Shown one piece after another: positions 16,731 through 61,507 of a DNA stretch of 64,000 bases. The stretch covers positions 150,301 to 214,300 of IMG/VR virus record IMGVR_UViG_3300037116_000299; one strand, written 5' to 3'. Source of the DNA: a virus. Within the stretch, counting starts at the first letter, position 1; every line of letters begins with the position of its first letter. Both the position numbers and the translations under genes were made by a program. The notes under the pieces are model-generated. The model was given only the letters and a program-made list of their open reading frames with translations. It was not told the origin of the DNA and did no database searches.

Positions 16731-18578
16731 ATGTACAACAATCTGCCTGGGATTCTGGTCAACACCGTTGATGGCGGCCTCGCCGTTCAGCGGCAGCCGG
16801 TGGCCGACTCCACTCTTGTCATCAGCACGTCCGGCCAGGGCGTCGCCAACCAGCCTTACCAGGTTGTCGATCGCACCAAAGCGGCTCTCGAATTCGGACT
16901 GCAGGGCAACCTGATCCGGGGCATGGAAGAGGCTGCATCGAATTCCGACAACCTGATCCTGTTCCGCATGGGTACCGCTCCGATGACCCTCACTGGCATC
17001 GGCGCAGATTCCACCCCGGGCGCTTTGACTGCAGGCTTCGGTTTGGAGTTCGGCCAGGTTCAGGCCACCGCCGCGACCGACTACAAGGTCTGGTACAAGG
17101 CCGGTGTGCTCGCCGTTTACTTCGGCGAGGCTCTGATCTATTCCAACGACCCGCTGCAGACGACCGACAACGGCGACCTCACCATCGACGGCTTGATCGC
17201 CGGCAATGCAGGTCTGCAGATCGGTACCGGAGCCAGCGCGACCCTCGCCAATGCCATCACGGTTCAGGCCGCAGCGGCTCTGGCAGGCGTAGCCCATCAG
17301 GCGGCTCCGACGCTGACCGCGTGCGTAACCGGCCTCGGCCTCACCGGCCGCCAGCAGTTCGTCGCCTTGCTCAAGGCGCTCGACTTGCTCCAGGGCTTCC
17401 AGGTCAAACAGATTGTGGTTCCGGAGGCGCTCTTCAATGCGCCGAACGTGGCCTTCTATGTCGCAGGCGACGCTACCACGTCCCTCAACAACCCGGTCAC
17501 CAACCCGAGTGCGCTCGACTGGCTCAAAACCTCAGCCGATGCGTATGGCAACCTCACGTTCCAGTGGGCGTCCGAGACAACGGACTCGAACGGAACAGCG
17601 GTTGCTGCCTTCGCCGGTGTGACCCTTGCGTCGCGCAAGGCCGCGGGCTTCTCCGAAGTCAACTGGGGCTACACCCTCGCCAACTTCTGCGCGTCGGTGA
17701 GCATGCTCGGCAACGAGTGCATTGGCTTCATCGGCACGACTGGCCCTGCTTCCTACAAGCTGGTCGATGTGCGCAAGTGGGTGGGTTACCTGCCCAAGTA
17801 CGACGCCAACGGAGTTGTGACCACGGCCGGTGCAGGCCTGCTCGGCATCGCCTACACGGCGGGCACGGACACCGCGCATCTGAATCCCCTGTGTGTCGAC
17901 TTTGCTTCCGGTTCGCGCAAGCCTGGCTTCTTCCAGACGGCGAGCGGACAGTACGATGATGCCGCGGAACAGGACATCAACCAGAATCCGATCGACATCG
18001 GCGCCTACCTGCATGTGGTTGCAGACCAGGCCATTCTTTCGAATGGCTTTGCCACCAACTATGTCAGCAACATCGCGACGTTCGTTGCCGGTATCTGCGG
18101 CATGCTCGACGAGAAGCGCGCACTGACCAACCTGTCGGTCTCCGGCATTCAGCAGCTGCCGGGCCTGACCTACACACCCGGCCAGCTCGATGCGCTCACC
18201 CAGGTCAACATCAACGTGCTCAAGACCAAGACCACCGGTCCGGCGCTGTTGCATGACAAGACCTGCGCCACCGATGCCAGCGACTACACCCAGGTGCTGC
18301 GCGTCCGCATCAAGGGCCTGGTGGTTGCCACCATGCTTGCGATCGGCGACCCCTTCGTGGGAGCCAGCTCGCTCGACGGTCTCCAGCTCACCTCGCTGAA
18401 GACGGCGTTGGACACCGGACTCTCCGAACTGTCCAAGCGTGGCTACATCAACAGCCCCAGCGTGGTCATCAAGACCACAGCGGCTGAACAGCGCATCGGT
18501 CACGCCGACCTGTTCCTGAAGTTCCACCCGGCCGACCAGATGGTGCAGCTCAACGCCTATGTGGGCCTGACCCGCTAA
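16731..18578 (+). CDS. Contractile tail sheath protein
   Basis: A 615-residue protein with a strong ribosome site (GAGGAG, 16718-16723). The N-terminal segment (PGILVNTVDGGLAVQRQPVADSTLVISTSGQG) has the opening strand pattern of sheath proteins, in which a bound virus activates contraction. The C-terminal domain (about 500-615) includes VLRVRIKGLVVATMLAIGD, a knob-like region and HADLFLKFHPADQMVQLNAYV, resembling the conserved C-terminal fold that makes inter-subunit strands. A tube protein follows, as in other contractile systems. This is the main evidence that the phage is a myovirus. Confidence 0.85.
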   Translation: MYNNLPGILVNTVDGGLAVQRQPVADSTLVISTSGQGVANQPYQVVDRTKAALEFGLQGNLIRGMEEAASNSDNLILFRMGTAPMTLTGIGADSTPGALTAGFGLEFGQVQATAATDYKVWYKAGVLAVYFGEALIYSNDPLQTTDNGDLTIDGLIAGNAGLQIGTGASATLANAITVQAAAALAGVAHQAAPTLTACVTGLGLTGRQQFVALLKALDLLQGFQVKQIVVPEALFNAPNVAFYVAGDATTSLNNPVTNPSALDWLKTSADAYGNLTFQWASETTDSNGTAVAAFAGVTLASRKAAGFSEVNWGYTLANFCASVSMLGNECIGFIGTTGPASYKLVDVRKWVGYLPKYDANGVVTTAGAGLLGIAYTAGTDTAHLNPLCVDFASGSRKPGFFQTASGQYDDAAEQDINQNPIDIGAYLHVVADQAILSNGFATNYVSNIATFVAGICGMLDEKRALTNLSVSGIQQLPGLTYTPGQLDALTQVNINVLKTKTTGPALLHDKTCATDASDYTQVLRVRIKGLVVATMLAIGDPFVGASSLDGLQLTSLKTALDTGLSELSKRGYINSPSVVIKTTAAEQRIGHADLFLKFHPADQMVQLNAYVGLTR

Positions 18579-18687: not shown

Positions 18688-19386
18688 ATGTCCAGTGCTC
18701 TCGGCGGTGTACTCGCCAGCGAAATCAGCCGTTCCTACAATTCGTTCGCAGGTTCGGACATCAAGGCGGTAATTGGCCAGTTCCAGTTCGCCGAGCTGCA
18801 GGCGATCAGCTACTCCATCACCCGCGAGAAGGCCCCGGTCTACACCCTGGGCAGCGCCGATGTGCGCGCCTACTCGCGCAACAAGCGCGGCATTGCCGGC
18901 TCCCTCATCTGGATCAACTTCGATCGCCACGCTCTGTTGAATCTCATTCAGCAGGCCGCCGGCACCTTCGTCGCCGATGCAGACGAGATTCGCCCGCAGT
19001 ACACCGACGTGTCCAACGGCTCCGCGGTCTTCCAGTCCTCGGTCATTCGTGACATGGGCCCCTCGATCAGTTCCACGATCAATGCTCTCGATCAGCAGAC
19101 CATCAACACGGTCGGCGCGACCAATGAGCTGGCGACCCCGTGGTATTCGGATCAGATTCTGCCGTTCGATGTAACGCTCGCTGGCGCAAATGAGTACGGC
19201 GCCATGTGTGCGGCCAAGATCTTCGGCCTCGAAATCCTCAACGAGGGTTCCGGGATCTCGATCGACGATGCGGTTACCGAGATGCAGGCGACCTTCGTTG
19301 CCCGTGTGGTCGAACCGATGGCCGCCGTGTCCAGTCCGTTCCAGCCGTCCACCGGCATTGGCGGTTCGGCTCTGACGCGCGCGTAA
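18688..19386 (+). CDS. Tail tube protein
   Basis: A 232-residue protein with an AAGGAG site. A central block, YTLGSADVRAYSRNKRGIAG followed by LIWINF, and a later block, NEYGAMCAAKIFGLEILNEG, match the general layout of myovirus tube proteins, where a loop is followed by a beta barrel. Immediately downstream of the sheath, as expected. Two further proteins with the same two blocks follow, so this is probably the principal tube subunit. A strong terminator follows the gene, in line with high expression. Confidence 0.75.
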   Translation: MSSALGGVLASEISRSYNSFAGSDIKAVIGQFQFAELQAISYSITREKAPVYTLGSADVRAYSRNKRGIAGSLIWINFDRHALLNLIQQAAGTFVADADEIRPQYTDVSNGSAVFQSSVIRDMGPSISSTINALDQQTINTVGATNELATPWYSDQILPFDVTLAGANEYGAMCAAKIFGLEILNEGSGISIDDAVTEMQATFVARVVEPMAAVSSPFQPSTGIGGSALTRA

Positions 19387-19407
19387 TCGTTTCTCCTCAA
19401 TCTCCAT

Positions 19408-19473
19408 ACGGGCAGTTTCAGCCTTTGGCTCTTTGTTCCTTTCTGCCATGCTGAAGCTGCCCGTTTCTTTATT
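19408..19473 (+). terminator. Strong intrinsic terminator between tube genes
   Basis: A 14-bp stem pairs 19408-19421 (ACGGGCAGTTTCAG) with 19451-19464 (CTGAAGCTGCCCGT); the single non-Watson-Crick pair is a G-U wobble. The loop is 29 bases and the 3' tail is TTCTTTATT. The next start codon lies only 12 bases beyond the stem, so partial read-through would set the level of the later tail genes relative to sheath and tube. Confidence 0.75.
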
Positions 19474-19475
19474 CC

Positions 19476-20402
19476 ATGTCCATCTCCTTCCCTACCGTAT
19501 CTCCCGACCAATGCCTGCTTACCTGTGGACTTGAGACGACTTCGTCTCAGGTCACTTCGTTCGTGGCGATGGGTCTGCCTGCGGACGCCGGTCCTACTCC
19601 GGCAGCCAGTGCGCCGGTGCTCGCCCCGCCAACAGCGCAGGACGCCGCGGCGCTCGCGGCTTACACCCCGTCGAAGACCAATACCCTCGACGGAAAGGGA
19701 ACGGTTGTAACGCCGCAGTGGAACCCCGGCGCCGCCGGCGCCTTCGACTATCCCACCGATGCGATCAATCACACTCCGAACCCAGGGCTGACCACGTCAG
19801 GGTCGAACTACGATGACATGACCTACACCGGGTCCGACCTGAAGGTCATGCTCGAGGTTGCAGGCAGCGGAAGCACTCCGGGATCGGTACGGCTGTCCAA
19901 GCGCCTGGCGGAGTTGACCACAATCACCGTCTCGGTCCATCGGGTCAAGTCCCCGGTACCTGCCTGCGGGTACATCAACACCAAGGGCTGGGCGCGCGGG
20001 CGGCGCACGATCGCCGGCACCATGGTCTTCACCAAGTTCCTGCAGGATGTGCTGGCCGAGTTTCTCACCTCCGCCGCCTTCACCTCCGATCTCTCCAAGG
20101 ATTCCCAGTACGTCAAGGTCGATCAGCTCCCGCCCTTCAATCTGACCTTCCTGTTCTCGAACGAGTACGGTCACCAGAGTTACCAGCGCCTGATCGGTGT
20201 TGAGTTCGTCACTTCGGGTGACGTCTACTCCATCCAGGACATGCTGAGCGAACAGACGGTCTCCTACGTCTGTGCCGACTTCACTCCTCTCCTCCCCATC
20301 TCCCAAAACAGTCAGCATGTAGCGGCAGCGTCCAACCCGATCACCGCTGCTCAGCGGACCGTGGCGGACGTGCTCAACGCCGCCGCAACACGGCAGGTCT
20401 AG
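19476..20402 (+). CDS. Tail tube-like protein (second paralogue)
   Basis: A 308-residue protein. Its C-terminal two-thirds repeats the layout of the tube protein: WARGRRTIAGTMVFTKF corresponds to RNKRGIAG followed by LIWINF, and SNEYGHQSYQRLIGVEF to NEYGAMCAAKIFGLE. The N-terminal 120 residues are a Pro/Ala-rich insertion absent from the first copy. No good ribosome site is visible; the start lies just after the terminator tail. Likely a tail-tube initiator, tip or terminal ring. Confidence 0.6.
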   Translation: MSISFPTVSPDQCLLTCGLETTSSQVTSFVAMGLPADAGPTPAASAPVLAPPTAQDAAALAAYTPSKTNTLDGKGTVVTPQWNPGAAGAFDYPTDAINHTPNPGLTTSGSNYDDMTYTGSDLKVMLEVAGSGSTPGSVRLSKRLAELTTITVSVHRVKSPVPACGYINTKGWARGRRTIAGTMVFTKFLQDVLAEFLTSAAFTSDLSKDSQYVKVDQLPPFNLTFLFSNEYGHQSYQRLIGVEFVTSGDVYSIQDMLSEQTVSYVCADFTPLLPISQNSQHVAAASNPITAAQRTVADVLNAAATRQV

Positions 20403-23070: not shown

Positions 23071-26000
23071 GTGCCCAATCCATTCATCGTATTCGATCTC
23101 GAGGCCAGCTCCTTCAACACGGGGCTGGCCAATTCGTTTCTGAATGGAGACGGCCGCGGCGCTGACTTGATTCAGGAGTTCGTCCGCACTAGTTCCGACC
23201 CTTCCCGTCTGCAACAGCATCCCCTCTTCCAAGCTCACCAGCGTTCCCAGATTCTGCAGGTCTACGCAACCGGCGGCGCCTTTCAAGGCGGCGACGAAGG
23301 ATGGGTACGTCCGTTCGACGAGATGCGCCGGTTCAACCGGCCGATCGGGAATTCACTCTACGATGAGAGCGACTTTGCCCTCCGTCATTCCCTGCTCTCG
23401 AAGGCACAGGGAGGCCGCAACTATGAAGCCCAGCGCGTCGAGCAACTGTACCAGGGAATCTCGGACTCGATCCGGTCCCATGGCAAGGCAGTCCTCGGTG
23501 GGCACAACATCGGGTCTTATGACTTGTGGAGGCTCGAGTACGCCACCTATCAGCACGACTCCCTGCGGAATCGCCGCGGGTGGCTGGCGGACCAGGTGCG
23601 CACGGGCCGTCTCATGTTGCGGGACAGCGACGCCGAACTGCTCGGAGCTGCCTCGGCGTTTGCCCGCCAGGATGCAGACTTTGCCGCCCATCACTTGAAG
23701 GGTGCGACCGACGTGGCTTCGGCCAAGTGGGTCTCCGGTCACAACCTGACCAACATCACCGAGGCAATGGGCTATCGCAACACCAATGCCCACAATGCCC
23801 TGGATGACACCCTCGGGAATGTGGCGTTCTTCGGGGACATCGATTCGGGGAAGGCCTTCACGCCGGAATCACTGCGTTCGATCTTCCCCCGCCAGGCTGC
23901 CGCTGCCACGCGCGAAGCCGCGCCGCTCCGGGCTACCGTGGCTGAAGCTGCAACGGAAGCGCGTTCTCTCTTCACCGGCGGAGAGAAGAAGTTCCTCATC
24001 GGCGCCGCCGTCGCCGCCGCCGCCGCCGCCGTAGGCTCTCTGATTGCGCACTCTACCCGCCGCGATCGCCAGACCCAAATCACAGGTCTTGGCGAGACCG
24101 GCATGGGCGCGCAGGGCCGCCACAGACTCACGGACTTCGGCTCTGGCTACCAGGGCCTCTCCACCTCCCCCAATCCCTTCCAGCTCGAGTCTGAGGCCGC
24201 CTACAACCCCCTGGTGCGCGCACTGGGTGTAGGCGTCACCGGCTCTGCGCTCTACGGCGCCCATCGCTACATGCTGGCGACGAGCCCGAACTATGCCAAG
24301 CGCCTCCACGGTGCTGCGCTCAAGTTCGAGCAGTATTCCCCCATGCACCTGGGGCGCACCTTCGCTGCCAGCGAACGGTTCTCGTCCTACCTGCCCAGCA
24401 AGCTGGTATTCACCCGCGGGATGCTGACCAATGACGACGGCACCCTCAATGAGGTGGGCCAGACCTTCGATCGTCAGTTCTCAGCAGCCGGACACAAGTT
24501 TGATTTCCTGAATGAGGTCACCGAAGACAATCCCCTGGTCTTCGAAGGCCGCCGCCGGGCGGGCTCCGGATCCCTGCAACTCCAGGGGCGCGGCATCGAC
24601 ATCGAGACCCGGTTCGTCCCCTCCGAGGGACGTCTGGCGGGAACCGCCGCGCGGCTTGACCAGGCGTTGGTCAACCATCCGATTCGCAGGTCGCAGGCTC
24701 AGAGTTCAGTCAAGCAGGCCTGGGGTGATTTCCAGGCAGTCCGCCGATCCCAGCGAATCTCGAATGCATCTCCCTGGTCTGAAGTCGCTAGTGCTGAAAA
24801 GCTGTATCGGCCTTTCTATACCCAGGGGCATGTCGCCGATCCTGCCGACGAGCTGTTCTCCCAGGCCCGCAATGCATGGACCCGTCTTCGGGTAGAGGGG
24901 CTCGAGGCGACCGAGCGTACCCAGAGACTCTTCGCGGAAGCAGGGTTCGGACTGAAGGCAGGTACCTGGAACAAAGCAGCTCATCTCCCCTTTGTCGGGG
25001 AAGGCGGCATGCTCAACCAGATGCTCACCAAGCGCGTCGCGCCTCTGGTGCTTGCAGCCACTGCGCTGGGCTGGCTGGACTATAAGCTGGGGCATCCAAG
25101 CAACAAGATCGTCGATCTTGGCCTGAAGGCCAATGTCCTGCGCGCCGACCTGACCGATATGGTCCCCGGCGCCCGCGGCGTCACTGACTTCTACGACAAG
25201 GTCACCCCGGGATCGCAGTACGGCCCGTTGGCGTTGCCCCTGGCCGGCGCTTTCTTTGGAGGTGTCTACCACTACGGCAAACTCCTCGGCGGCAAGTACG
25301 CCGATGAGGCAGCCAGGACCCTCGGGGCTCGTATCCTCCCTGAGATGAAGGGCCTGCGCAACTTCACCGCTAAGGGTGGCAAGTTGGTTTCCGTCGAAGG
25401 AGCTTCCGCTATCTGGAAGTCTCTCGGCGCGCCGGGCAAGGGCGCTGCCATCGGCCTGGCTGCCATGGCTCTGTTCGTGCCCGGCATGCTTGGGTCCCGT
25501 AAGAGCGGCGCCGATCTGCGCGACATCTACTCCGGCAGCGAACCGATTCCAATCAGGTCCGGCCGCTGGTGGGAAGTCGGCTCAACACCCTACGAAGGCG
25601 GACGCATCAAGGAGTGGCGTCCCCACTGGAGCGTGCTGCGCAAGAGTCATGCAGAAGACATCTCGCTCTACGGATCCGAGAAGGATAAGTGGAAGCACAA
25701 TCCCATCCTGCATCCGCTGAAGTATGCCCGCGATCCCTACTGGCTTGAGAAGCAGCATTACTACGATCGACCGTACCCGGTTGCGTCCCCGGCGTTCTCC
25801 AATGTTCCCTTGATCGGCCCGCTGCTCGCCGCGACCGTCGGCAAGTTGGTCAAACCGCCTGTGCGCATGCATGAAGAGAACTGGAATGGAGAGGATTACA
25901 CCCTCTACTCAACCCGTCTGGAACCGAAGGGCCCAGGCGCGGTCGCGCCGCCCCGTCCGGAAGACGAGTTCACCCTCAGACATGCCCTCAAGCAGGAAGT

Positions 26001-28101
26001 AGGTATCCTGGCCGAGTACACCGGACTCTACGGATTCATCGCCAGCAGCGCCTACCAGGCCATCTTCCCAGGTGTGAACCAGGGCAAGGACGTCTACTTC
26101 CAGGGCTCCCGTCAGATGGACAATTTCTCCCGCCGCTACTACGAGCGGGAGCTGGGCGCCGGCATCGCGCCGTCTCCCTCGATGAAGGAACACTTCGGAT
26201 ACACCGAGCCCTTCCGCCGATTTGTCCAGCGGGAAGACTTCTCTCCCCAGGCCAACCCACTGCGCAACCAGATGCCTGGCTGGCTGCCCGGAGCCGACTA
26301 CCTCACCAACTTCCAAATCGGCGATCCCTTCACCAAGGTCGACGAGGGCTATGCCCGCCTGCCTGGCGCCGGCTACGAGGCCCTGCATCCAGAGTTGAAG
26401 GGACTCAAGCCCGAAGACTACCCCGACATCAACAAGCTGGCCATCCTGGGTGACGTAGCCCCGTACTCGCGCGAGTACAACATCTTCCGTTCGAAGGTAG
26501 GCGCCGACTCCGCCGACAACACCGAGCTGCGCATCGAGTACGAGAAGATCCTCGACCGCGTCCGGCAGACCAGGGAGTCCGTCATCCGGATGGACGCTCG
26601 TCGCTTCACCGAGCCTGTCGCTGAGCTTGAAGGCACCGTCGAAACGGCGACGCCCGGCGGAGTCACCCTCAAGGAACACCCCGGACAACTCTTCCAGTTC
26701 TCGTCCGTGAGCATGAGTGCCGCCAGCATGTCGGCGAGCATTCTCGGCGAGCACAACAATCTGACCCGCGCGGAAGTTGCCGGACAGGTTGACGAGCGCC
26801 ATCAGAAACTGCAGGACTACCTGGCTGGGATGGTTGGATCCAAAGCCCACCTGACAGTCCCCGATGGAACACTCGGCCGGGCGGAGCGCGCACGAGCCGT
26901 CATCGAAGTCGATGGCAAGAACCTCAACCGGGAACTGATCGACCAGGGTTACGGCCAGTATCAAGAACGCCTGGGCGGAGCTGAAGCGCAGGAGATGTTC
27001 GGCGCCGCCGGCAAGACCATGGGCTCGATCGCTGAGGCCCTCGCCTTCCAGGGCGACTCCGGCCGGCTCAACCCGATGCGCTACATCCCCACACCAGGCC
27101 ACACCAAGGCCTGGCAGGAGCGCACGCCACTCGCCCAGTACATGACCAACGAGGTTGTTGGCACCCGCATGCGGCGGTGGGAACGGCCCATCCATGACTT
27201 CCTCATGCCTTACGCACGAGGCGCCTGGCAGCGGATGAGCGGTAAAGCTCTCATTCCTGAGGATGTACAGGTTCGGCGGGATCTGAACACCCTGGGCGAC
27301 ACCATGCAATATCTCCGCGGACTCAATGCGGAGACCTCGGGGACCTATACTAATAAGAAGCAGAGGACTTCTGTCGGGGCCAACCTGTTTGCCGCGTCGA
27401 CGTTTGTAGCTTCTACCCTTCCCGCCCGCGAATCCCATTACTTCCGCCAGTTCCTCAACGAGACGGATCCCGAGAAGCGGGCCTCGATTCTCGAAGTGGC
27501 TTCGACCGAGATGCAGCGCGCCCTTTCCGCGCAGTGGGTCGCTCAGGAAGCTCGCATTCAGGTAGCCAACGGCGAAGACCCTGGCCCGATCGGCGAAGGC
27601 GGCCGGCTCTACACCCAGGCCAACGTCGAGGACTACAAGAAAACCGACACCAGTCTGGACTACGGCAATTGGTTGCGATCCAAGGAGATCGCCGACTTCT
27701 TCTCCCGCACCGGGTTTGCTCTTCCCGAACAAGGATCAGCTGCATACGACGAAGCTTTGGATTATGAGGACGTCAAGCTGAAACTGATTCAACAGGAAGG
27801 GTACGACTCCCATGACTTCAACATCTTCGATGACCGGGCAGCCATGCTGTGGCGCAAGCCGTATGTGGATGGCGCTGTCCGCGAACTCACCAGTGGTGAC
27901 GATCGTTCCCCAGAACAGTTGCGGCGGGCGGTCGAACAGCTGATGACAGCCTCACACGACGCAAGATCGGATGTTCGAACTGCGGTACACGCAAGCCACA
28001 CGAATCGCGCGAGCATTCGAGTGGATGTATCTGTCGACGAGAGCGACGCACTGGTGAGAGACATTCGCCGCAACCCCGACAAGTATGCGCAGGAGACGTA
28101 A
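23071..28101 (+). CDS. Giant membrane-segment tail protein with N-terminal DEDDh exonuclease domain
   Basis: A 1,676-residue protein at the tape-measure position. Residues about 5-255 form a complete RNase T/DnaQ-type 3'-5' exonuclease domain: D9-x-E11, GGHNIGSYD with D151, and H241 with D246 in AHNALDDT. Residues about 305-325 (an alanine run encoded by a GCC-rich tract), 375-395, 665-680, 715-735, 790-810 and 910-930 are hydrophobic and could span membranes. Residues about 1175-1300 resemble a degenerate staphylococcal-nuclease fold ending in NRELIDQGYGQY. It may act as tape measure and/or be ejected into the cell. Nuclease activity is predicted from the motifs, not known. Confidence 0.75.
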   Translation: MPNPFIVFDLEASSFNTGLANSFLNGDGRGADLIQEFVRTSSDPSRLQQHPLFQAHQRSQILQVYATGGAFQGGDEGWVRPFDEMRRFNRPIGNSLYDESDFALRHSLLSKAQGGRNYEAQRVEQLYQGISDSIRSHGKAVLGGHNIGSYDLWRLEYATYQHDSLRNRRGWLADQVRTGRLMLRDSDAELLGAASAFARQDADFAAHHLKGATDVASAKWVSGHNLTNITEAMGYRNTNAHNALDDTLGNVAFFGDIDSGKAFTPESLRSIFPRQAAAATREAAPLRATVAEAATEARSLFTGGEKKFLIGAAVAAAAAAVGSLIAHSTRRDRQTQITGLGETGMGAQGRHRLTDFGSGYQGLSTSPNPFQLESEAAYNPLVRALGVGVTGSALYGAHRYMLATSPNYAKRLHGAALKFEQYSPMHLGRTFAASERFSSYLPSKLVFTRGMLTNDDGTLNEVGQTFDRQFSAAGHKFDFLNEVTEDNPLVFEGRRRAGSGSLQLQGRGIDIETRFVPSEGRLAGTAARLDQALVNHPIRRSQAQSSVKQAWGDFQAVRRSQRISNASPWSEVASAEKLYRPFYTQGHVADPADELFSQARNAWTRLRVEGLEATERTQRLFAEAGFGLKAGTWNKAAHLPFVGEGGMLNQMLTKRVAPLVLAATALGWLDYKLGHPSNKIVDLGLKANVLRADLTDMVPGARGVTDFYDKVTPGSQYGPLALPLAGAFFGGVYHYGKLLGGKYADEAARTLGARILPEMKGLRNFTAKGGKLVSVEGASAIWKSLGAPGKGAAIGLAAMALFVPGMLGSRKSGADLRDIYSGSEPIPIRSGRWWEVGSTPYEGGRIKEWRPHWSVLRKSHAEDISLYGSEKDKWKHNPILHPLKYARDPYWLEKQHYYDRPYPVASPAFSNVPLIGPLLAATVGKLVKPPVRMHEENWNGEDYTLYSTRLEPKGPGAVAPPRPEDEFTLRHALKQEVGILAEYTGLYGFIASSAYQAIFPGVNQGKDVYFQGSRQMDNFSRRYYERELGAGIAPSPSMKEHFGYTEPFRRFVQREDFSPQANPLRNQMPGWLPGADYLTNFQIGDPFTKVDEGYARLPGAGYEALHPELKGLKPEDYPDINKLAILGDVAPYSREYNIFRSKVGADSADNTELRIEYEKILDRVRQTRESVIRMDARRFTEPVAELEGTVETATPGGVTLKEHPGQLFQFSSVSMSAASMSASILGEHNNLTRAEVAGQVDERHQKLQDYLAGMVGSKAHLTVPDGTLGRAERARAVIEVDGKNLNRELIDQGYGQYQERLGGAEAQEMFGAAGKTMGSIAEALAFQGDSGRLNPMRYIPTPGHTKAWQERTPLAQYMTNEVVGTRMRRWERPIHDFLMPYARGAWQRMSGKALIPEDVQVRRDLNTLGDTMQYLRGLNAETSGTYTNKKQRTSVGANLFAASTFVASTLPARESHYFRQFLNETDPEKRASILEVASTEMQRALSAQWVAQEARIQVANGEDPGPIGEGGRLYTQANVEDYKKTDTSLDYGNWLRSKEIADFFSRTGFALPEQGSAAYDEALDYEDVKLKLIQQEGYDSHDFNIFDDRAAMLWRKPYVDGAVRELTSGDDRSPEQLRRAVEQLMTASHDARSDVRTAVHASHTNRASIRVDVSVDESDALVRDIRRNPDKYAQET

Positions 28102-29171
28102 TGCAACCGCACAGCATCACCCTTGACCCCGAGCTGCACAGCGTTGATATCCGCGAGATTGAACGTCGCCTGAAAGAAAGGGTGGCTGGTCAAGATCCGG
28201 CCATTTCACAGTTGGTGGGCTTGCTCGAAACCTACTTTGCCGGCTACAACGACCCTAATGCTCCTGTGGGCGTGGTGCTTGCCCTGGGCCCGTCCGGGAC
28301 CGGCAAGACCAGTCTGATCGAAGCTCTGTGCGAGATACTCTACGACAACCCCAAGGCGCATGTTCGGATGAACTGCGCGGACTTCAAGGAGTCCCAACAG
28401 ACCCAGCGGATTGTCGGAGCGCCTCCGGGCTACATCGGTTTCAAGGACAAGTCGATCGAGACGTATTTGACCCAGGAGAATCTGGACCGCCATCACACGG
28501 CGAAGATGAAGCTCAGCGTCGTCCTGCTGGACGAGATCGAGGAAGCTCATAGCGCCCTCTATGACTACCTGCTGGCCGTATTCAATGACGGCGAAGGCAT
28601 GGTCAGCGGCAAGCTGGTCAACTTCCGCAACACCCTGTTTGTCATGACCTCGAACCTGGGGACCTCCACGAAGTCCAGCCTGCTTGGCTTTACGGCCGAC
28701 CAGGTCGCCGCCCATAACCACCAGAACGAAGCATCGATCCGCAAGGCAGTGCAGGAGCATTTCAAGTTCAAGTTCCTGAACCGCATCGACGAAACCATGA
28801 TCTTCGAGGCGCTGTCCAAAGAGACCATCGACCTGATCTTCGACATGCAGGTGTGCCAGATCCGCCGCAGGCTTCTGATCTCGAAGCAACCCGGTCCGCA
28901 GTACGTGTTCAAGATCCAGGACGATGCCCGCCAGGAGCTGGTCCGCCGCGGCTTTGACATCAAGTTTGGAGCCCGTCCCCTGAAGCGTGTCCTCCGCCGG
29001 GTCATTACCGACAAGCTGGCGGCTCTGATGCGCAGCGGCCAGGTGGAACACGGCGACCTGGTGGTGATCGATTACACCGGCATTCGCTTCATCTACGAGA
29101 AATACAACGGTGACGAAATCGGCCAGCTCTCGGACCCGCAATGGGCCGAGTTCAGCAGGATCATCGACTAG
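28101..29171 (+). CDS. ClpA/ClpB-type AAA+ ATPase
   Basis: A 356-residue single-ring AAA+ protein resembling the second ATPase module of ClpA/B/V. Walker A GPSGTGKT (63-70), substrate-gripping pore loop GAPPGYIGF (106-114), Walker B VVLLDEIE (140-147), sensor 1 TSN (183-185), arginine finger in FLNRID (R228) and sensor 2 GARPLKR (290-296) are all present, so it should be an active hexameric unfoldase. It lacks the N-domain, first ring and middle coiled coil of ClpB. It overlaps the upstream giant gene by one base and precedes the second giant gene. A role in folding, loading or threading those proteins, or in sheath handling as with ClpV, is inferred. Confidence 0.88.
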   Translation: MQPHSITLDPELHSVDIREIERRLKERVAGQDPAISQLVGLLETYFAGYNDPNAPVGVVLALGPSGTGKTSLIEALCEILYDNPKAHVRMNCADFKESQQTQRIVGAPPGYIGFKDKSIETYLTQENLDRHHTAKMKLSVVLLDEIEEAHSALYDYLLAVFNDGEGMVSGKLVNFRNTLFVMTSNLGTSTKSSLLGFTADQVAAHNHQNEASIRKAVQEHFKFKFLNRIDETMIFEALSKETIDLIFDMQVCQIRRRLLISKQPGPQYVFKIQDDARQELVRRGFDIKFGARPLKRVLRRVITDKLAALMRSGQVEHGDLVVIDYTGIRFIYEKYNGDEIGQLSDPQWAEFSRIID

Positions 29172-29190
29172 ACCTTTGATAGATGCGGCG

Positions 29191-29207
29191 GAACAGCGAT
29201 GCTGTTC
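29191..29207 (+). repeat. Small hairpin in the gap before the polymerase-like gene
   Basis: GAACAG (29191-29196) pairs with CTGTTC (29202-29207) over a 5-base loop in the 158-base gap 29172-29329. The rest of the gap is C-rich, with no gene and no obvious promoter. The downstream start has no Shine-Dalgarno sequence, so this gap may be a regulated leader. Confidence 0.4.
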
Positions 29208-29329
29208 TAGCCACCAAGGCTCCCACCGGGCGGACGAGTAACTCACCTGGACTTCCGCGATAGCACCCTGCCGTCCTCACCTGTGCTCCCCACCTCGCTC
29301 GGAAGCGTCCGCCCACCCCTCTCCCTCCC

Positions 29330-32300
29330 ATGCCAAATCCCCTCCCATCGATGACCCGAACCGCCCTCAACTCCCTCAATGAGGGTGTTGACGGCGTGCG
29401 TGCATGGGCGAATCTCAGCCTGCTGCACTCCAGGGTGGGTATGGGAGCGGGCATTGCCATGCTGGCAGCTCCGTTGTTCCTGAAGAATGACGAGCGCGGT
29501 TACTTCCAGACGGCTGCGATGACCACTCCCTTGATCGCCGCCGGCGCCATGGTAGCGCCGCGGCTGTTCCCGACGCTGCAGCGCGAAGGTAAACGCCTCA
29601 TCGACGTGGTCAAGCAGGTTCCTACCGACTACGGCTTTCAGAGCGGGGTCTACAACGCCGAGAGCGGCGCAATGAACCTATCCGAACTGCGCCAGGCCTT
29701 CGAAGGCGGACGCATCTCCTCCGCGGATTACAACCGAGGTTTGCTGCGCTATCACGGTGACATTGCCGCCAGCGTGATCAGTCCCGACGAGATCGACCGG
29801 CAGTTCCTGTCGGCATCCCGCACCTTCTCCGAACTGTACAAAGATCCCACCAAGCACCGCATGCTCGAGAACGCGCTGTACCGCGCGACGCTGAGCCAGG
29901 AAAGCGCCGGCGAGAAAGCTGCCTGGAACGACCTGACGGCGGTTGCACCAAAGATGTCGCTCAATGAGATCGACGACCTGTTCGACGCCTACTCCAAGAA
30001 CCCGGACTGGCTGAAACAGGTCAACTACCGAATGCAGGAAGCCCGCAAGGCAACTACATCCGGCGCCACCATTCCCTCAATCGACACCCTGGTCGATGCG
30101 AATGCCGAGTACGTGCACTCTTACAGCCTGGATACAGATCAGGGCATGGCGATGCTCAAGAACTCGCCGTTCCAGGATGAGATGAGCGAGATCGAGACCC
30201 TGCTCGGCACTCAGGGTGCGGGCTGGAAACGATCTGACTTCGAACTGCAGGTTCTGCCTGATCGCAACCAGGCAGTCAACCGCATCCAGGGCCTGATGGT
30301 TCGGGGCGAGCTGTCGATTCCTTTTGCTGATGCGGACGGCGGCGTGCGCCTGGGCAGCCGGTTCGACCGGCACGGGGCCTCCCGCTTCTTCATCACCCAC
30401 AACGACCGGCTCTCCTCCCAGGTCTATGCCCTGCGCGGGCTGCAGAGCGGCCCCGCCGCCATGCCGAGTGTGGCCGAGGAGCTGGCGCGCGCTCAGTTCA
30501 ACATTCAGGGCGATGCAGGTGCATTGCGCAACCAGAAGTTCTTCTTTGGCAAGCAGGGTGTCATGGGCAATCTGCCGAACTCATTTCCCACCGAACGAGG
30601 CGCAAAGGGATTTGCCGATCTTCGTCCGGAAGAGATGATGGCCGCGATCAAACATCAGACCGAGGGGCCGGATGGCCTGGTCCGGATGTCAGGCGGTACG
30701 GGTCTGGACATCTATGAAGATCGCTCACTGCGGTTGATCGAGCCCCAGGGCGTGCACTCGCGTGAGGCGGAGAGTCTGCGCGGCAAGGCCGTCAACAAGG
30801 GCGTCTCCGCCTGGGTAGCTCCCGGCCATGAAGGCTTCTCCGCCACCAACGCCGTGGATCTTCCTGAGTTTGCGATGCGGACCTACCAGGTGTCGGGCAG
30901 CCAGCATGCCTTCTTCAGCGAGATGCCGGAATGGAAGGCGATCGAGAACGACGTCAACCAGCAGTTCGGTTATATGGAAGCTGCCGGTTTCGGAGGCAGC
31001 TCCGCCCTGGAAGAAGAGGCACGACAACTGTCTGTCGATGTCGCCTTGAGCAAGATTGGCGCTCGGGAACGCATGATCACCTTCATGGCAGGAGATGCGG
31101 GTGTTGGTATGGAAGCAGCCGAGGCCATGTACACCAAGTTCCTGCCATTCCTGGCCAATCCCAAGAACTACGAGGCCATGCGATCGCTCTCCTATCTGGG
31201 AGATGGATCCAGAATCATGGGCAACAGCATCGGCGCTGGCTTCACCCAGACCCGCTCGGTGCGCCTGCACGAGAGCCTGCTCACCGAAGGCATGCTGAAC
31301 GGGGAGACCATTCCCGAAGGCACGCCACTGGGCTTCGAGTACGGCAACGCCGTGTTCCCCAACGGGGAGCGCAACAAGATCGTCTCGCACTCGAGCACCT
31401 TCAACGAAGACGGGTCAATGACCTTCCAGATCGAAGAGAACCTGGGCAGCCAAGGCCTGAAGACGCACGGCTACACCAAGCAGACGACTGTGCTCGGGCT
31501 CAACGACCTGACCCTGGACCGCGTGCGCCGCGGTACGAATGCGTGGCATCAGGCGACCGGCAGCGGTGGTGTGGTCGATGAGCGAGTAGCCGCCTTCACC
31601 CTGGAGGGTTCCAACTCGGCCAAGGCCAAGAACCCCCTCTCCATCATGGAGAACATGCTGGGCGCCACGCTGGGCGATGTCCAGCAGGCAAACGGTGAGC
31701 TGCCCGACTTTCTCAATGCCGGCCTCAAGCAGCTGTCGCCCTACGGCTATTCGTTTGAGAACGGCGGACTGCTCAGCGACTCGTCGAAGTTCCTGAGCAT
31801 GGAGCATGCTCCTGCGAACTACACCGCTGTGGCCGAGATTATGCACGGCTTGATGGAACAGACCGGCGCGGCCATCAAGGCCGAGCAAATCAAGCTGGAC
31901 GCATCCATGCGCGGCTACATTGACTGGTCCATGAAGAACTCCAACGGGTCTTATACCGACTACAAGACCCGCTTCGGCATGCCCGAATCTCTCAGCGTAT
32001 CCGATCACATGGCCCTGAACCACGCCGGTGAGGTTCGGATCACGCGCGACGCACTGCAGCAGTTGAACATTATGGGCTACCACGAGGTTGCCAAAGAGAT
32101 CAACGACCGCCTGCAGACCGACGGACTCCCGAGTATGACCCAGGACTTCCTCAAGCACATCGAGAAGGACGGCCAGGACTTCTCCGGTCAGTTTGGTGAT
32201 ACCACCGTTTCGCTCGCTGATGCAATGGGAGGTTCCGACCTGCGCCTGGGCACCGCCGCTGGGCGCTCGGGTACGATCTTCGACCCAAAGAATCCGCTTG

Positions 32301-34279
32301 CCCAGAAGAACTACTCCGTCCTGGCCAATGTGGAAGGCAAGGACTATTACATCCCTGCCCTGGGGCGAGAAGCCTTTGGAGGCGGAGCAAACGCATACGG
32401 CACCGACGGTTACTCGGCCAACACGTGGGAGGGCCAGTTCAAAGATGTGCTGCAGGCTGCCGGCGGCGACAAGGAACCCTTCGAAGCGAAACTCAAGACT
32501 TACACCGACACCGTGAAACAGAAGGTGGGGATGGGCAAGGAGAGTGTGTGGCGCCCGTCGTCCGTTGACCCTCTGGGCATGGAAGGGCGCGCCGCCTCGC
32601 GCGCTTCGTCTCTGCGCTACGCGGATGGTTCCGTAAACCCCTACGAGATCGGAGTGGGCAACCGTTATCTGGATCTGATGGCCGCCGACGATGCAGCCGC
32701 TCTGCGCCGCGGTGGTAGCCGAGCATCTCTGCTCTTGCGTCACCCGATCAACGCTCCGGCCATCACCGTGATGAAGTACGACCCGCGGCTGGACAACACC
32801 TGGGACATTGGAGTGGATCCTCTGCTGCAGTTGATCGATAAGGGCGACACCGACGGCGATCGTATGTCAGCCCATCTGATCAACGGGGACCACTTCACCA
32901 AAGAAGGTTTCGCCAACTTCATGAAGAATGAAGTTCACGGATCTCAGAGCCTGCAAAGCAGTCAGGTCAAGTTCAACCGAATCTTCAATGGTGATGAGGG
33001 GCCCGTTCCCTTCAAGGACTGGTTCGCCGAAGCAGGTGAAGGCGCCCGGCGGCGCAACGGGTTTGCCACCTTCGCAGGAGTTGATGTCCGCCGCGCCCTG
33101 ATGGCTCGCACCGCCGGCGCCGACGTCGGCATGCTGTCGAACACCTTTGAGCTGATGGAGACCACGATCGCGCACAGCAATTCGATCCGCATGCCTGCCG
33201 AGCGTCTACTTGCCCACCAGACCCTGTTCGATATCGTCAAGCAATCCTCGATTGCCGCCCAGAAGTTGAAGAAGGGGGACGCGGTCGGGGACTACACCCA
33301 GCTTATGGCCTGGAACAACAAGCTGCGTGGTTCCCTTGCAGATCGGTCTGCCAATGGCCAACAGGGCTTTATGAAGGCCCTCATGGAAGGCGCTGAGAAG
33401 TTCGGCAAGGATGTCGACATCAACGATGAACACGTTGGAATGGGCATTGCCACCCAGGCAGAGCTGGAAGCTGGCAGTCAAATCAATCCCTACGCGCGCT
33501 TGCTCGAGCACAAGGCTGATCTCTTCGGACGGGTCCACTCTAGCTTCGACCCGCGACAGGCAGATGCCCATAAGCTATGGACCATGTCCGCCGCTGATGC
33601 CGAGAAGTTCTACGGCAACGTCACCGGCCGGATGACCGACGATATGCTTCCCCTGATCCAGGCGGCAGCCAACCGAGGCAGCGCAAGCAATTTGAGTGCT
33701 GCGGTTCTGGGAGCTGAGAACGAAGCCAACAAGGTGGCGCAGTTTGCCGGGAAGGCACGGCGGGCGGCCGCCGGGTTGGTCGATGCGGCCGGGCAGTCTG
33801 CGGAAGAAGTCATGCGGACCGCTCGGGGAGCTGGCGTCAGTAAGGTCCTGGGCATCGGCATGGCAGCCGCGGCTGCAGGAGGCCTGCTGTTGGGGTCTCT
33901 GCACAGCCCGCGCGAGGGACAGGCTTTGGCTCCTCCATCGGGTAATGCCCAGCGTCCGGAAGAACGGATCGGAGTCGAAGATCGCATTCCAGGAGAACCT
34001 GAGCCTGGGGCGATGGCACCTGCCAACCCACCGCGTATGGTGAGGTCAGCTCGGCAGGGTGTACGCACTTCCGTCGTTGCCCCCATGGGTCGTGCGACCC
34101 AGCTCGAAGTCCACATGAAGGCCGACGACCGTAGTCGAGCGGCCGAAGCTGCCCGTCTTGCCGCAAGACTTGCCTCCGGCGATGGGAACTCCAGCACCAC
34201 GATCAATTACCGCGACACCACTCGACTGGACAGTCTCCGCACCCGGGACAAGGTCCGCGAGGCGATGAACGAAAGCTAA
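29330..34279 (+). CDS. Giant virion protein with RNA polymerase double-psi-barrel motifs
   Basis: A 1,649-residue protein. The key segment is LLLRHPINAPAITV (R1137, P1139) followed 36 residues after R1137 by D1173-x-D1175-G-D1177 in GDTDGDRMSAHLI. E. coli beta-prime has LLNRAPTLHRLGIQ and NADFDGDQMAVH with R425 and D460 35 residues apart, so both sequence and spacing agree. Residues about 680-720 (EGTPLGFEYGNAVF, then LGSQGLKTHGYTKQ with K711 and K717) resemble the beta-subunit barrel that supplies two lysines. A single chain with both barrels fits the YonO/crAss-phage virion polymerase class. Hydrophobic segments lie at about 40-75 and 1500-1525. The start at 29330 has no ribosome site; an ATG at 29351 is an alternative. 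Part of the protein may have tape-measure functions. Confidence 0.72.
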   Translation: MPNPLPSMTRTALNSLNEGVDGVRAWANLSLLHSRVGMGAGIAMLAAPLFLKNDERGYFQTAAMTTPLIAAGAMVAPRLFPTLQREGKRLIDVVKQVPTDYGFQSGVYNAESGAMNLSELRQAFEGGRISSADYNRGLLRYHGDIAASVISPDEIDRQFLSASRTFSELYKDPTKHRMLENALYRATLSQESAGEKAAWNDLTAVAPKMSLNEIDDLFDAYSKNPDWLKQVNYRMQEARKATTSGATIPSIDTLVDANAEYVHSYSLDTDQGMAMLKNSPFQDEMSEIETLLGTQGAGWKRSDFELQVLPDRNQAVNRIQGLMVRGELSIPFADADGGVRLGSRFDRHGASRFFITHNDRLSSQVYALRGLQSGPAAMPSVAEELARAQFNIQGDAGALRNQKFFFGKQGVMGNLPNSFPTERGAKGFADLRPEEMMAAIKHQTEGPDGLVRMSGGTGLDIYEDRSLRLIEPQGVHSREAESLRGKAVNKGVSAWVAPGHEGFSATNAVDLPEFAMRTYQVSGSQHAFFSEMPEWKAIENDVNQQFGYMEAAGFGGSSALEEEARQLSVDVALSKIGARERMITFMAGDAGVGMEAAEAMYTKFLPFLANPKNYEAMRSLSYLGDGSRIMGNSIGAGFTQTRSVRLHESLLTEGMLNGETIPEGTPLGFEYGNAVFPNGERNKIVSHSSTFNEDGSMTFQIEENLGSQGLKTHGYTKQTTVLGLNDLTLDRVRRGTNAWHQATGSGGVVDERVAAFTLEGSNSAKAKNPLSIMENMLGATLGDVQQANGELPDFLNAGLKQLSPYGYSFENGGLLSDSSKFLSMEHAPANYTAVAEIMHGLMEQTGAAIKAEQIKLDASMRGYIDWSMKNSNGSYTDYKTRFGMPESLSVSDHMALNHAGEVRITRDALQQLNIMGYHEVAKEINDRLQTDGLPSMTQDFLKHIEKDGQDFSGQFGDTTVSLADAMGGSDLRLGTAAGRSGTIFDPKNPLAQKNYSVLANVEGKDYYIPALGREAFGGGANAYGTDGYSANTWEGQFKDVLQAAGGDKEPFEAKLKTYTDTVKQKVGMGKESVWRPSSVDPLGMEGRAASRASSLRYADGSVNPYEIGVGNRYLDLMAADDAAALRRGGSRASLLLRHPINAPAITVMKYDPRLDNTWDIGVDPLLQLIDKGDTDGDRMSAHLINGDHFTKEGFANFMKNEVHGSQSLQSSQVKFNRIFNGDEGPVPFKDWFAEAGEGARRRNGFATFAGVDVRRALMARTAGADVGMLSNTFELMETTIAHSNSIRMPAERLLAHQTLFDIVKQSSIAAQKLKKGDAVGDYTQLMAWNNKLRGSLADRSANGQQGFMKALMEGAEKFGKDVDINDEHVGMGIATQAELEAGSQINPYARLLEHKADLFGRVHSSFDPRQADAHKLWTMSAADAEKFYGNVTGRMTDDMLPLIQAAANRGSASNLSAAVLGAENEANKVAQFAGKARRAAAGLVDAAGQSAEEVMRTARGAGVSKVLGIGMAAAAAGGLLLGSLHSPREGQALAPPSGNAQRPEERIGVEDRIPGEPEPGAMAPANPPRMVRSARQGVRTSVVAPMGRATQLEVHMKADDRSRAAEAARLAARLASGDGNSSTTINYRDTTRLDSLRTRDKVREAMNES

Positions 34280-34282
34280 ACC

Positions 34283-37200
34283 ATGAGTGTTACCTTCTCC
34301 ACCAGCAACTCGGGCCCTTCGTCTGCCGGCTACTTCCGGATCGGCTTTGTCACGCTGCAGATCCCGCCTCAGAACATCGTGACCTCGCGCGTCGTCAACA
34401 ACGACAAGCTGGCCACTCTGCGCGGCATGAACGAGATGTTCCGCAAGACCGGTCAGGCTCGCTGGGACGTAACCGTGAGCTGGGCCGCCATGATGGGCGG
34501 CGCCACACCCGAAGCCAAGTACCAGCAGTGGAATGATCTGCAGAACGTCGCCGCCATGTTCAAGGCAGCTCCCTTTGTCGAAGTCGAGTCACCTCACCTG
34601 CGCCAGGTCCTGGCCCCTCACGATCCGCTGATGGCTTATCCCCACCGGCTGGGGATGGCGTTGCGGCAGCTACGCGTTGATTCCCATCCCGATATCGTGG
34701 ACACCCTTCTGGTCACGTTGACGATGACCTACTTCAACTTCGGTCCCTACTCTGTGGCCTTCGACTATGTGGGCGACGAAGGACAGCCAGTCAGCGCCGA
34801 TCAATGCACCAAGTTCAAGAACTACATCGCCATGTGGCGCGCGAACAATATGGACCACGTCTCCGCGCGGGACGGCGACCCGATCGCACCGCTGTGGATG
34901 GCACAGGATCCAGGCGAGATGGCCCTGAAGTACCGGATCTACAACCCGGTTCCAACCGGTCAACTGCCGGACTTTGGAACCATGGTCATGCCTGGCGGCG
35001 CCCAGGTGGGCACGACAGTGCTGCCCAGCACCTACACTCCAGCGTCAGCGACATCTGCCGCGGCCGGCAAAGCGAGCAAGGGAACTCTGCCTCCGGATAT
35101 CGAAGCTCTGATTCGGAAGACGGCACTTACGGTCAAAGGGTACTGTGATCCGGCTATTGCCTGTGCAGTCTGTCTCACCGAAAGCGCTGGAAACCCAACT
35201 GCTCACAATGCAGGATCGACAGCACAGGGTCTCTTTCAGTTGCTGGCAGGCACGCGCCAGTCCCTCAACGTGGCGGACGGCTTCAATGCACAGCAGAGCG
35301 CCCAAGGTGGCTGCCAGTACCTGGCCGATCTGTTCAAGAAACTGGGCACCTGGGAGCTTGCCGTTGCTGGTTTCAACCAGGGATCCGGCACCATCGTTGC
35401 TTATCGGGACGGCAAGGCCTTGACCGACAAGAGCAACGGGCACGTGATCAATCCGAACAAGCTGGTGACCGGTGGAATTCCTCCGGATCCTGCTGTGCAG
35501 CGGTACGTTTCAACCATCCTGCGCAATGCACAGATGAAGTTCGGATTCACCGGGCAGACAGCACCTCAGCCAGGCTCCCAGCGGCCACAGACCGCACAAG
35601 TGGCACCGGCCGCTGCGACCAACAGCGCCACATCGCCCGCCACTTCCACCAGCAATCCAATGACAGCGACGGACTCCGCGACCGAACAGGCGTTCCAGGC
35701 CCAGGCTACCGAGATGGCGGCCGACGGTTGGAGTCTTGATCATCGGTCGGACACCGCGGGCGTCGGGATCTGCTTCTTCTACAAGGAAGCCGAAGTGAGG
35801 ATGGCTCCGCTCGATTCGTCTACGGCGGATGTCACCGGCGGCATCTGGCCCACCCAGTTCTCGGTTCTGCTGGTGAACAATCTGGCGCAGATCCCTCTGT
35901 CCGGTTATCAGTATCCGACCTATCAGCATCTTGGCCCCTGCAGTTCGCTGGTGCAGATCTCGTTCATGTCCAAGGGCGAGCGCGCCGACGAAACCCAGGA
36001 ACCTGTGCACGAAGGCCTCAGGTCGCTATCCTCCATGGCTCACTTCATGGAACAACAGCACCTGCGTCTGCGCACGCAACTGCGCACGCCCAATTCCCTG
36101 CATCGGATGCAGGCAGTCTACGTTGAGAACCAGGTCCTGAACATGCTCGGCATCTACGGCCTCATGCTTGACCAGGTCACTACCGAGACATTGCCCGAGT
36201 CCTCGGACCTGGTCACGGCGCAGCTGACGGCCAGCCAGTACGAGAACCGCTTCGAAGAGATCGAGCCCTACAAGTTGAACGGCATCTCCCAGGCCTACAA
36301 CCAGGGGTTGAAGGACCTGGTGCTGACCGACAATACCATTCAGCAGGCACCTTCCGATGTCCAGGGACCGTTGAAGCCCATCTTGAACTACCGCACCCAG
36401 GCAGATAACGCAGATGAAAATGCGATGATCGCGCGCCTGATGGAAGTCGCGGCTCAGCCGTCGTCGACTCTGTTCACGTACATGGCAGGTGCACCCACTT
36501 TCACCATCAGCCAGGTCGACGCCGCCCAGATCACCTACCAGACGGGAGTGGACTGGTCGAAGTATCCGGTCGCACTCGCCCGGGTGAAGCAACTCCAGCA
36601 GACTGGCGATGCTCAGACCTGGACGATGGCCGACTACCTGATGATCAAGAGCGTGGCCTGGAAGGTCTACAAGCCGGTTAATCTGGGCGGCAGTATTCAA
36701 CACGTCGACTCAACCTTCCAGGGCAACACCCGCCGGACGATGGTCCAGGATGCGTATCAGCGGCTGTTCGCGTACTTTGCCGCGAGCGACACCGGACTGC
36801 GCACCGCTCTCAACCAGGTGATGAACAGCCCAGCCCTGGCCGCCAAGGTCAAGGGCGCAGTGCCCTCCGGGGACCCGTCGCTGGCGTCACCAGGATCCAA
36901 CGACCACGGCGCCTACCGGGATATGGGTTTGAACACCATCCTGTTGAACGGCGAAGACTTCAACCCCGGCATGTACTTTGTCAACAACAACGAACAGTAC
37001 AAGACACTTGCGAAAGGCGCCCTGCTGGATGTGATGAGGTCGACGGCATCGGCGGCGGCGCAGACCAACAGCAATGACAACAGCCAGCAGCTGCCGAATT
37101 CAGTGGCCCCAATCTCCTCGACGACATCTCTGACTCCGACAAACCTCCCCGTAGATCAGGCAGGACAGATCAACCTGCCGGCAGGCCTCAAGTCGATCCC

Positions 37201-60040: not shown

Positions 60041-60229
60041 GTGAAAGTGAAAGAGATCGAAACCGAGCAGAACGACATCATGGATGCGAGTGAACTGGCG
60101 GCTCTTCTGCGTGTCAATGTAGTAACTGTCCGCCTCAAGGCTTCAGCGGGTGTGATTCCAGGCCGGCAAATCGGAAACCGCTGGCGCTTCAGCCGCACAC
60201 GGATCATTCAGTGGATGGAGTCCGCTTGA
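60041..60229 (+). CDS. Excisionase/MerR-type HTH protein
   Basis: A 62-residue protein from GTG 60041, preceded by GAGGAGGAGG. Residues about 14-60 form the winged-helix HTH_17 pattern used by excisionases and small MerR-like regulators: MDASELAALLRVNVVTVRLK, then GRQIGNRWRFSRTRIIQWME. Convergent with the integrase gene, with a 26-base overlap of their 3' ends. Likely controls direction of integrase recombination or is a lysogeny regulator. Confidence 0.75.
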   Translation: MKVKEIETEQNDIMDASELAALLRVNVVTVRLKASAGVIPGRQIGNRWRFSRTRIIQWMESA

Positions 60230-61334: not shown

Positions 61335-61380
61335 GACTTCTTTCCGAACCCCCGTATGCAATATCAGGAAGTATACCTTT

Positions 61381-61398
61381 TGTGGGGTTTGTGGGGTT
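61381..61398. repeat. Tandem 9-mer TGTGGGGTT, two copies
   Basis: Two perfect adjacent copies of TGTGGGGTT lie between the integrase start and the tRNA. Short direct repeats beside integrase genes are often arm-binding sites for the recombinase. They could also be part of the attachment core. Confidence 0.4.
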
Positions 61399-61430
61399 GG
61401 TCATTTTACTAAACTGTTGATAACAAAGAT

Positions 61431-61507
61431 GCGCCCGTAGCTCAGCTGGATAGAGCGGCAGCCTCCGAAGCTGTAGGTCAGAAGTTCGAATCTTCTCGGG
61501 CGCACCA
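61431..61507 (+). tRNA. tRNA-Arg (anticodon CCG), CCA encoded
   Basis: A full cloverleaf of 77 bases: acceptor GCGCCCG pairs with CGGGCGC, the D arm includes AGCTCAGCTGGATAGAGC, the anticodon stem is GCAGC/GCTGT (one G-T pair) around the loop CTCCGAA with anticodon CCG, the T arm includes AGAAGTTCGAATCTTCT, and the end is ACCA. It reads CGG. The gene is intact, on the plus strand, immediately beyond the integrase, so it is the likely chromosomal attachment locus. The prophage lies on its 5' side, unlike the usual arrangement. Confidence 0.95.

Follow-up and report, generated by a model that had tools for sequence, protein, structure and literature searches.

Unfoldases dock ClpP by LGF or IGL loops, LGF being the form found in M. 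tuberculosis ClpC1 and ClpX (PMC11992174), and for ClpA-like ATPases encoded by phages a part in virion assembly or in the translocation of unfolded proteins was suggested earlier (PMC7824862; PMC6102473). It is an open question by what means very large enzymes enter the narrow contractile tail of a phage and pass along it. In the jumbo phages RaK2, GAP32, XaC1 and SE_PL, a double-ring ClpA-like gene adjoins a giant virion gene; in PA5oct and Atu_ph07 such a gene lies beside DnaJ, that of PA5oct being also beside a giant tail gene, and in Vibrio phages it is located near reductase genes. The locus described here lies in a stretch of 64,000 nucleotides (the window), comprising positions 150,301 to 214,300, the final 64 kb, of the 214.3-kb virus record IMGVR_UViG_3300037116_000299. 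There, the gene of the protein P0001 (28101-29171) encodes a single-ring AAA+ unfoldase and is flanked by the genes of two giant tail proteins, giant 1 and giant 2. The window thus has in common with the RaK2-like phages and PA5oct a phage-encoded HSP100 unfoldase beside giant virion genes. However, the ATPases of those phages are double rings of the ClpA clade, and in the RaK2-like phages the gene is on the opposite strand to the giant and does not overlap it. We tentatively prefer the explanation that P0001 is a late, translationally coupled unfoldase that probably docks ClpP and works for the tail module in an accessory capacity, in quality control or remodeling. As an unfoldase recurs in the same slot beside such giants and has a readable docking motif, it can be tested directly whether it acts in assembly or quality control.

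The gene and its motifs are located as follows.
28099-28103, plus strand: TAATG junction, in which the giant 1 stop and the AAA+ start overlap by one base (sequence)
28101-29171, plus strand: P0001, single-ring D2-type AAA+ unfoldase of 356 amino acids with an ATG start (Pfam, alignment, model)
28287-28310, plus strand: Walker A motif GPSGTGKT, amino acids 63-70 (alignment)
28416-28442, plus strand: substrate pore loop GAPPGYIGF, amino acids 106-114 (alignment)
28683-28691, plus strand: LGF tripeptide, amino acids 195-197; the loop that holds it is disordered and lies where ClpA/ClpC have their ClpP-docking loop (alignment, model)

P0001 matched the Pfam families AAA_2 (1.1e-28) and ClpB_D2-small (1.6e-15), both above their cut-offs and spanning the length of the protein. 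Alignment with the D2 modules of E. coli ClpB and ClpA placed Walker B at VVLLDE (D144, E145), sensor 1 at N185, the Arg finger at R228 and sensor 2 at R292 (within GAR), and every catalytic and pore residue aligned with both E. coli proteins. All of the features that define an HSP100/Clp class II D2 module (Walker A and B, Tyr pore loop, sensors, Arg finger and D2-small) were present. An AlphaFold model built from 16 sequences (predicted local distance difference test score, pLDDT, 83), used in place of an 8-sequence model (pLDDT 62) that we set aside, matched the structures of ClpC, including ClpC-ClpP complexes, and of ClpB D2 with Z about 29-31, and PTEX HSP101 entries were also among its structural matches. 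The initial annotation of this DNA had described a complete single-ring AAA+ protein with its pore loop and all ATPase motifs, joined to giant 1 by a one-base overlap, and the alignment, Pfam, the model and the TAATG junction agree with it on each of these points: the giant 1 stop codon TAA occupies 28099-28101, and its final A doubles as the A of the AAA+ ATG.

The gene is under purifying selection, and comparison of the window with L009, a 98.9% identical contig, revealed five synonymous and no non-synonymous differences within it. Its codon use and its G+C content at third codon positions resemble those of the neighboring genes. Because the motifs and fold are intact, no amino acid has changed relative to L009, and the base and codon composition is neighbor-like, the gene most likely functions and is resident. 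A fusion or frameshift joining it to giant 1 was set aside, as the AAA+ frame stays open for 67 codons ahead of its start in the window and does not do so in L014, and matches in PADLOC (PDC-M37B and DolB) reflected common AAA+ sequence only. No promoter-like site belonging to the gene itself was seen in a weak scan, whose promoter and terminator output was uninformative.

The label "ClpB-type" that was first given to P0001 does not describe it well. The protein consists of D2 only, the N-terminal domain (N-domain), D1 and M-domain all being absent; it has LGF at a position where ClpB has none, and it scored 235.9 against a cut-off of 1232 for the ClpB equivalog. Its best curated model was nevertheless ClpB, followed by ClpA, and not ClpV, and among solved structures its nearest sequence matches were the D2 modules of ClpB (best) and ClpC. 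P0001 therefore has the fold of the ClpB/Hsp104 D2 module, but ClpB possesses D1 and the M-domain and lacks the docking loop, while P0001 is the reverse. With the D2 ring of ClpC/ClpA, P0001 shares the fold (Z about 31 to ClpC), the docking-loop tripeptide and the pore Tyr, and differs in lacking D1, the N-domain and the M-domain, at 27-35% identity. Beyond sensor 1, a flexible loop contains a tripeptide of the form [LIV]G[FL], namely LGF at residues 195-197; pLDDT is below 50 in this region (residues 190-201). The copies that occupy the same slot behind giant 1 in related phages have LGF (window), IGF (L014) or MGF (L215 and L302), and a chromosomal single-D2 family of the Terriglobia, described below, has [LIM]GF or close variants, whereas ClpB in the same alignments does not. 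Because P0001 has the LGF loop that ClpB lacks, it is better read, from its sequence, as a ClpC-like, D2-only ring. Furthermore, as [LIM]GF is kept in all four tail-slot copies and in the chromosomal family, and the loop is disordered in the model, P0001 probably docks the ClpP of its host. No ClpP was found in the phage record, and ClpP was present in all eight of the Terriglobia genomes checked.

To evaluate the pairing of the AAA+ gene with giant 1, we used loci from two giant-1 alignment searches and one AAA+ family search; many of the matches of the AAA+ search of phage records lay in fragments or in contigs that look bacterial but bear phage names (Listeria, Staphylococcus, Bacteriophage sp.), and only annotated true phages were used from it. 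An AAA+ gene lies directly behind giant 1 in four lineages (the window with L008 and L009; L014; L215, which is the same as L301, with L296; and L302 with L303), among which giant 1 is 43-48% and the AAA+ protein 32-49% identical. These divergent phages keep giant 1, the AAA+ gene, giant 2 and the hub in that order, the L302 and L303 contigs stopping before the hub. The AAA+ start, which overlaps the giant 1 stop in the window, is close behind that stop in the other three lineages. The gene order on which the initial annotation had relied was thus recovered in four divergent lineages but is missing from eight others that have the same giants, and we conclude that the pairing of giant 1 and AAA+ is conserved but optional, and that the AAA+ gene is a real, though optional, part of the tail module. 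In the tree of giant 1, the window lies with L010 and L021, and L014 branches outside them, so that a single gain followed by losses and repeated gains are both possible. Right after the AAA+ gene, L014 (14940-15380) and L215 (11066-11467) carry homologous genes of 133-146 amino acids (E 1e-18), and it is possible that these encode a partner or adaptor.

A similar arrangement was found with a different single-D2 AAA+ protein (clade 2; L048-L052 and L105), which heads a late operon in five related phage records. In the four of these five records whose neighborhoods were read, a giant of about 1200-1300 amino acids, split in some, follows a few genes on, and then the terminase. Clade 2 and P0001 have in common the single ring, the occurrence in giant-1-related phages, and a late operon with an exonuclease-motif giant. 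Clade 2 differs in forming a separate clade, in its AGF or TGF loop, in an N-terminal extension in several members, and in gene location, its gene lying ahead of the terminase gene and not within the tail block. Among records L200-L203 and L105, exonuclease motifs or a match to phrog_192 were seen in L200, L202 and L203. Because unfoldases and giants have converged in separate phages, a late, virion-linked role appears moderately supported.

The nearest non-phage relatives of P0001 are single-D2 proteins of about 375 amino acids that are encoded on the chromosomes of Terriglobia (Acidobacteriota). We obtained a match at E 1e-60 or better in 198 of 200 sampled Terriglobia genomes; most of the listed best matches were frames of single-ring size, and a genome often had two or more. 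The Acidobacteriota are thus seen to have a widespread and unexplained single-ring Clp family. These chromosomal proteins (for example L133-L139 and L161-L190) are 35% (window) to 48% (L014) identical to the phage copies, with which they share the D2-only architecture, the [LIM]GF loop and an insertion between the pore loop and Walker B. They differ in that their genes are chromosomal and have no phage genes nearby, and sometimes have a response-regulator gene next to them (L133, L135, L139 and others).

In an AAA+ tree, P0001 grouped with this single-D2 family and ClpV was distant. In a tree of 47 rows, the four tail-slot copies and the Terriglobia family together were monophyletic (support 100/99). 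Within that group, the chromosomal clade (97/100) excluded the four tail-slot copies and had other phage copies (L074 and L304-L307) inside it. The window branch is very long, and its exact placement is unsure. The position of the tail-slot copies outside that clade led us to reject a recent host capture, including the stray host clp fragment that the initial annotation had named as a possible refutation. The best explanation of the sequences would be that a member of the single-D2 family was taken up long ago by the phage lineage.

The explanation that we tentatively prefer can be put as a series of steps. The AAA+ protein would be made late, together with giant 1; P0001 would form a hexamer that pulls chains through its Tyr pore; and its docking loop, like the other [LIM]GF loops, would engage host ClpP. 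Its clients would most likely be proteins of the tail module, either the giants or their chaperones, which could be remodeled, or degraded if misassembled. P0001 would be an accessory, as related phages assemble the same tail type with no phage copy of it; as a guess, such phages are perhaps served by the host's own single-D2 proteins.

Several observations weigh against this explanation. Only four of the 12 lineages have the AAA+ gene at the junction; the eight that lack it are the L010 group, L016, L021, L293, L294/L300, L295, L297 and L299, and in the L010 group giant 1 is 67% identical. No D2-type AAA+ gene was found anywhere in four long records (G003, G442, G444 and G448), of which G003 (178 kb) has a giant 1 of 67% identity. 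As unrelated genes fill the slot behind giant 1 in L012, L021, L295 and L297, that slot may be an insertion hot spot. The same AAA+ family occurs outside any tail operon in other phages, and homologs are chromosomal in most Terriglobia, so that the family lies largely outside tail operons, a distribution that the initial annotation had itself named as counting against its proposal. Additionally, P0001 has no adaptor or N-domain for client recognition, and a single clade of the four tail copies was neither rejected nor shown (p-AU 0.208).

A possible alternative, somewhat behind the accessory tail role, is that an insertion hot spot holds an accessory, moron-type gene here. P0001 would then be a single-D2 unfoldase captured from Acidobacteriota that works with host ClpP on host or stress-damaged proteins, has no functional tie to the giants, and gains only strong late expression from the tail slot. 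The patchy presence, the unrelated genes at the same junction, the occurrence of the family elsewhere in other phages, and the widespread, multi-copy nature of the host family are all consistent with it. However, the same gene family occupies exactly the same slot in four divergent lineages, the tail copies are older than the host clade and outside it, the weak scan found no promoter-like site of the gene's own, and a second single-D2 clade is likewise placed in a late operon with a giant.

The energy-driven step in loading, assembly or ejection of the giants that was originally proposed was not borne out, the kept [LIM]GF loop pointing to host ClpP rather than to a free-standing threading motor. 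A dedicated motor, whose ring would unfold the giants and, independently of ClpP, pass them on to the tail tube or hub (or else reset them), would account for the conserved order of giant 1, AAA+ and giant 2, and the exonuclease and RNA polymerase (RNAP)-like motifs of the giants would need passage through a narrow tube. PTEX HSP101, an HSP100 protein that threads cargo through a translocon, is among the structural matches, and RaK2-like phages have ClpA-type genes next to those of giant virion proteins. We nevertheless consider such a motor unlikely: the same giants exist without the AAA+ gene, L293 having even the exonuclease form, and the kept ClpP-docking tripeptide would be needless for a ClpP-free unfoldase such as ClpB. 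A variant, also improbable, is a tail-dedicated motor that unfolds the giant enzymes for storage in or passage through the tube, its ClpP loop perhaps re-used for a phage protein.

It is more doubtful still that P0001 travels inside the tail as a passenger and is delivered into the new host to work there on entry. Its gene is among the virion genes and would be expressed with them, but for the RaK2-like phage CBB the sole Clp-named protein listed from virion mass spectrometry is a ClpP-type subunit, from one peptide, and ClpA is not named (PMC5259590), and no injection signal is known. The least likely role is the ClpV-like disassembly and recycling of sheath raised by the initial annotation: ClpV (TssH) of type VI secretion is, like P0001, an HSP100 protein with the D2 fold near a contractile tail, here in the same operon, but it is a double ring with a sheath-binding N-domain, whereas P0001 lacks that domain and D1, has LGF, finds its best curated matches in ClpB and then ClpA, and is distant from ClpV in the tree, and phage sheaths are used once, a tail firing a single time.

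The tail module around the AAA+ gene has the following components.
16731-18578, plus strand: tail sheath (phrog_16991, 2.2e-36)
18688-20402, plus strand: two tail tube genes, 18688-19386 and 19476-20402 (position and homology)
23071-28101, plus strand: giant 1, 1676 amino acids, gp145-type tail protein with DEDDh exonuclease motifs in its N-terminal ~300 amino acids
29172-29329, plus strand: leader of giant 2, non-coding and conserved, predicted to form a long hairpin
29330-34279, plus strand: giant 2, 1649 amino acids, placed where 0305phi8-36 has its tape measure gp146, with an RNAP-like motif at amino acids 1173-1177
34283-39973, plus strand: giant 3, 1896 amino acids, gp147-type baseplate hub with an SLT transglycosylase domain

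Upstream of giant 1 are the sheath, the two tubes, a 505-amino-acid protein and two small genes. Giant 1 has relatives among the giants of KLEB27-3 and MTATph1, and in Acinetobacter phage ME3 its relative is a virion structural protein; the order of gp145, gp146 (the tape measure by its length) and gp147 (the hub) in 0305phi8-36 (PMC2147016) matches that of giants 1, 2 and 3. Synteny with these four phages confirmed that the giants flanking P0001 are tail proteins, as had been claimed. No AAA+ gene of the P0001 type was found in ME3, KLEB27-3 or MTATph1, and giant 2 had no match in phage records.

The description of giant 1 as exonuclease-bearing was supported by its DEDDh motif set in order, which none of 545 shuffles reproduced, but the profile match was weak (phrog_192, E 0.052). 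The DEDDh region is fused at the N-terminus of giant 1 (23071-24168 in the window), with FILDIET in L215 and L296 and FVLDIET in L293, and these motifs are absent from L010, L014 and L016. A tight link between exonuclease and AAA+ was dropped, as L014 and L302 have the AAA+ gene without the exonuclease motifs and L293 is the reverse.

The AAA+ gene precedes a polymerase-like gene, as initially noted, with giant 2 beginning 158 bases downstream, past the leader, and containing the motif DTDGD. In giant 2 this motif (amino acids 1173-1177, at 32846-32860) stands in the context RHPIN...DP...DTDGDRMSAH and closely resembles DxDGD, the catalytic motif of the double-psi barrel in RNAP beta', and relatives have DADGD (L010), DYDGD (KLEB27-3 gp034) or DxDKD (L014 and L016). 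In phage P23-45, an RNAP is fused to the tape measure (PMC10770324), and it is possible, judging from these motifs, that giant 2 provides a virion RNAP in the 0305phi8-36 lineage. The leader (29172-29329) is conserved also in L010 (13985-14131) and in L011, L012, L013 and L015, and had no match in Rfam. Its predicted hairpin, GGGCGGAC...GTCCGCCC, shows one clear pair change from C-G to T-A.

Further downstream, the window contains a marker of the host.
60204-61507: integrase (60204-61361, minus strand) next to tRNA-Arg(CCG) (61431-61507, plus strand), a likely att site

The tRNA-Arg(CCG) is 100% identical over 77-83 nucleotides to Terriglobia genomes, and relatives of giant 1, some of them broken, were found in four of 399 Terriglobia genomes. 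Because of this tRNA identity and these relatives, the host of this large soil phage is likely a member of the Terriglobia, which would tie an uncultured jumbo-phage lineage to the host phylum Acidobacteriota. As the integrase adjoins a tRNA-Arg identical to that of Terriglobia, this is likely a temperate jumbo phage. The giant-1-like stretches in the four genomes (L204-L208, in G413, G439, G253 and G232), some of which contain stop codons, are probably decayed prophages; the stretch in G413 is 70% identical and is present in two copies.

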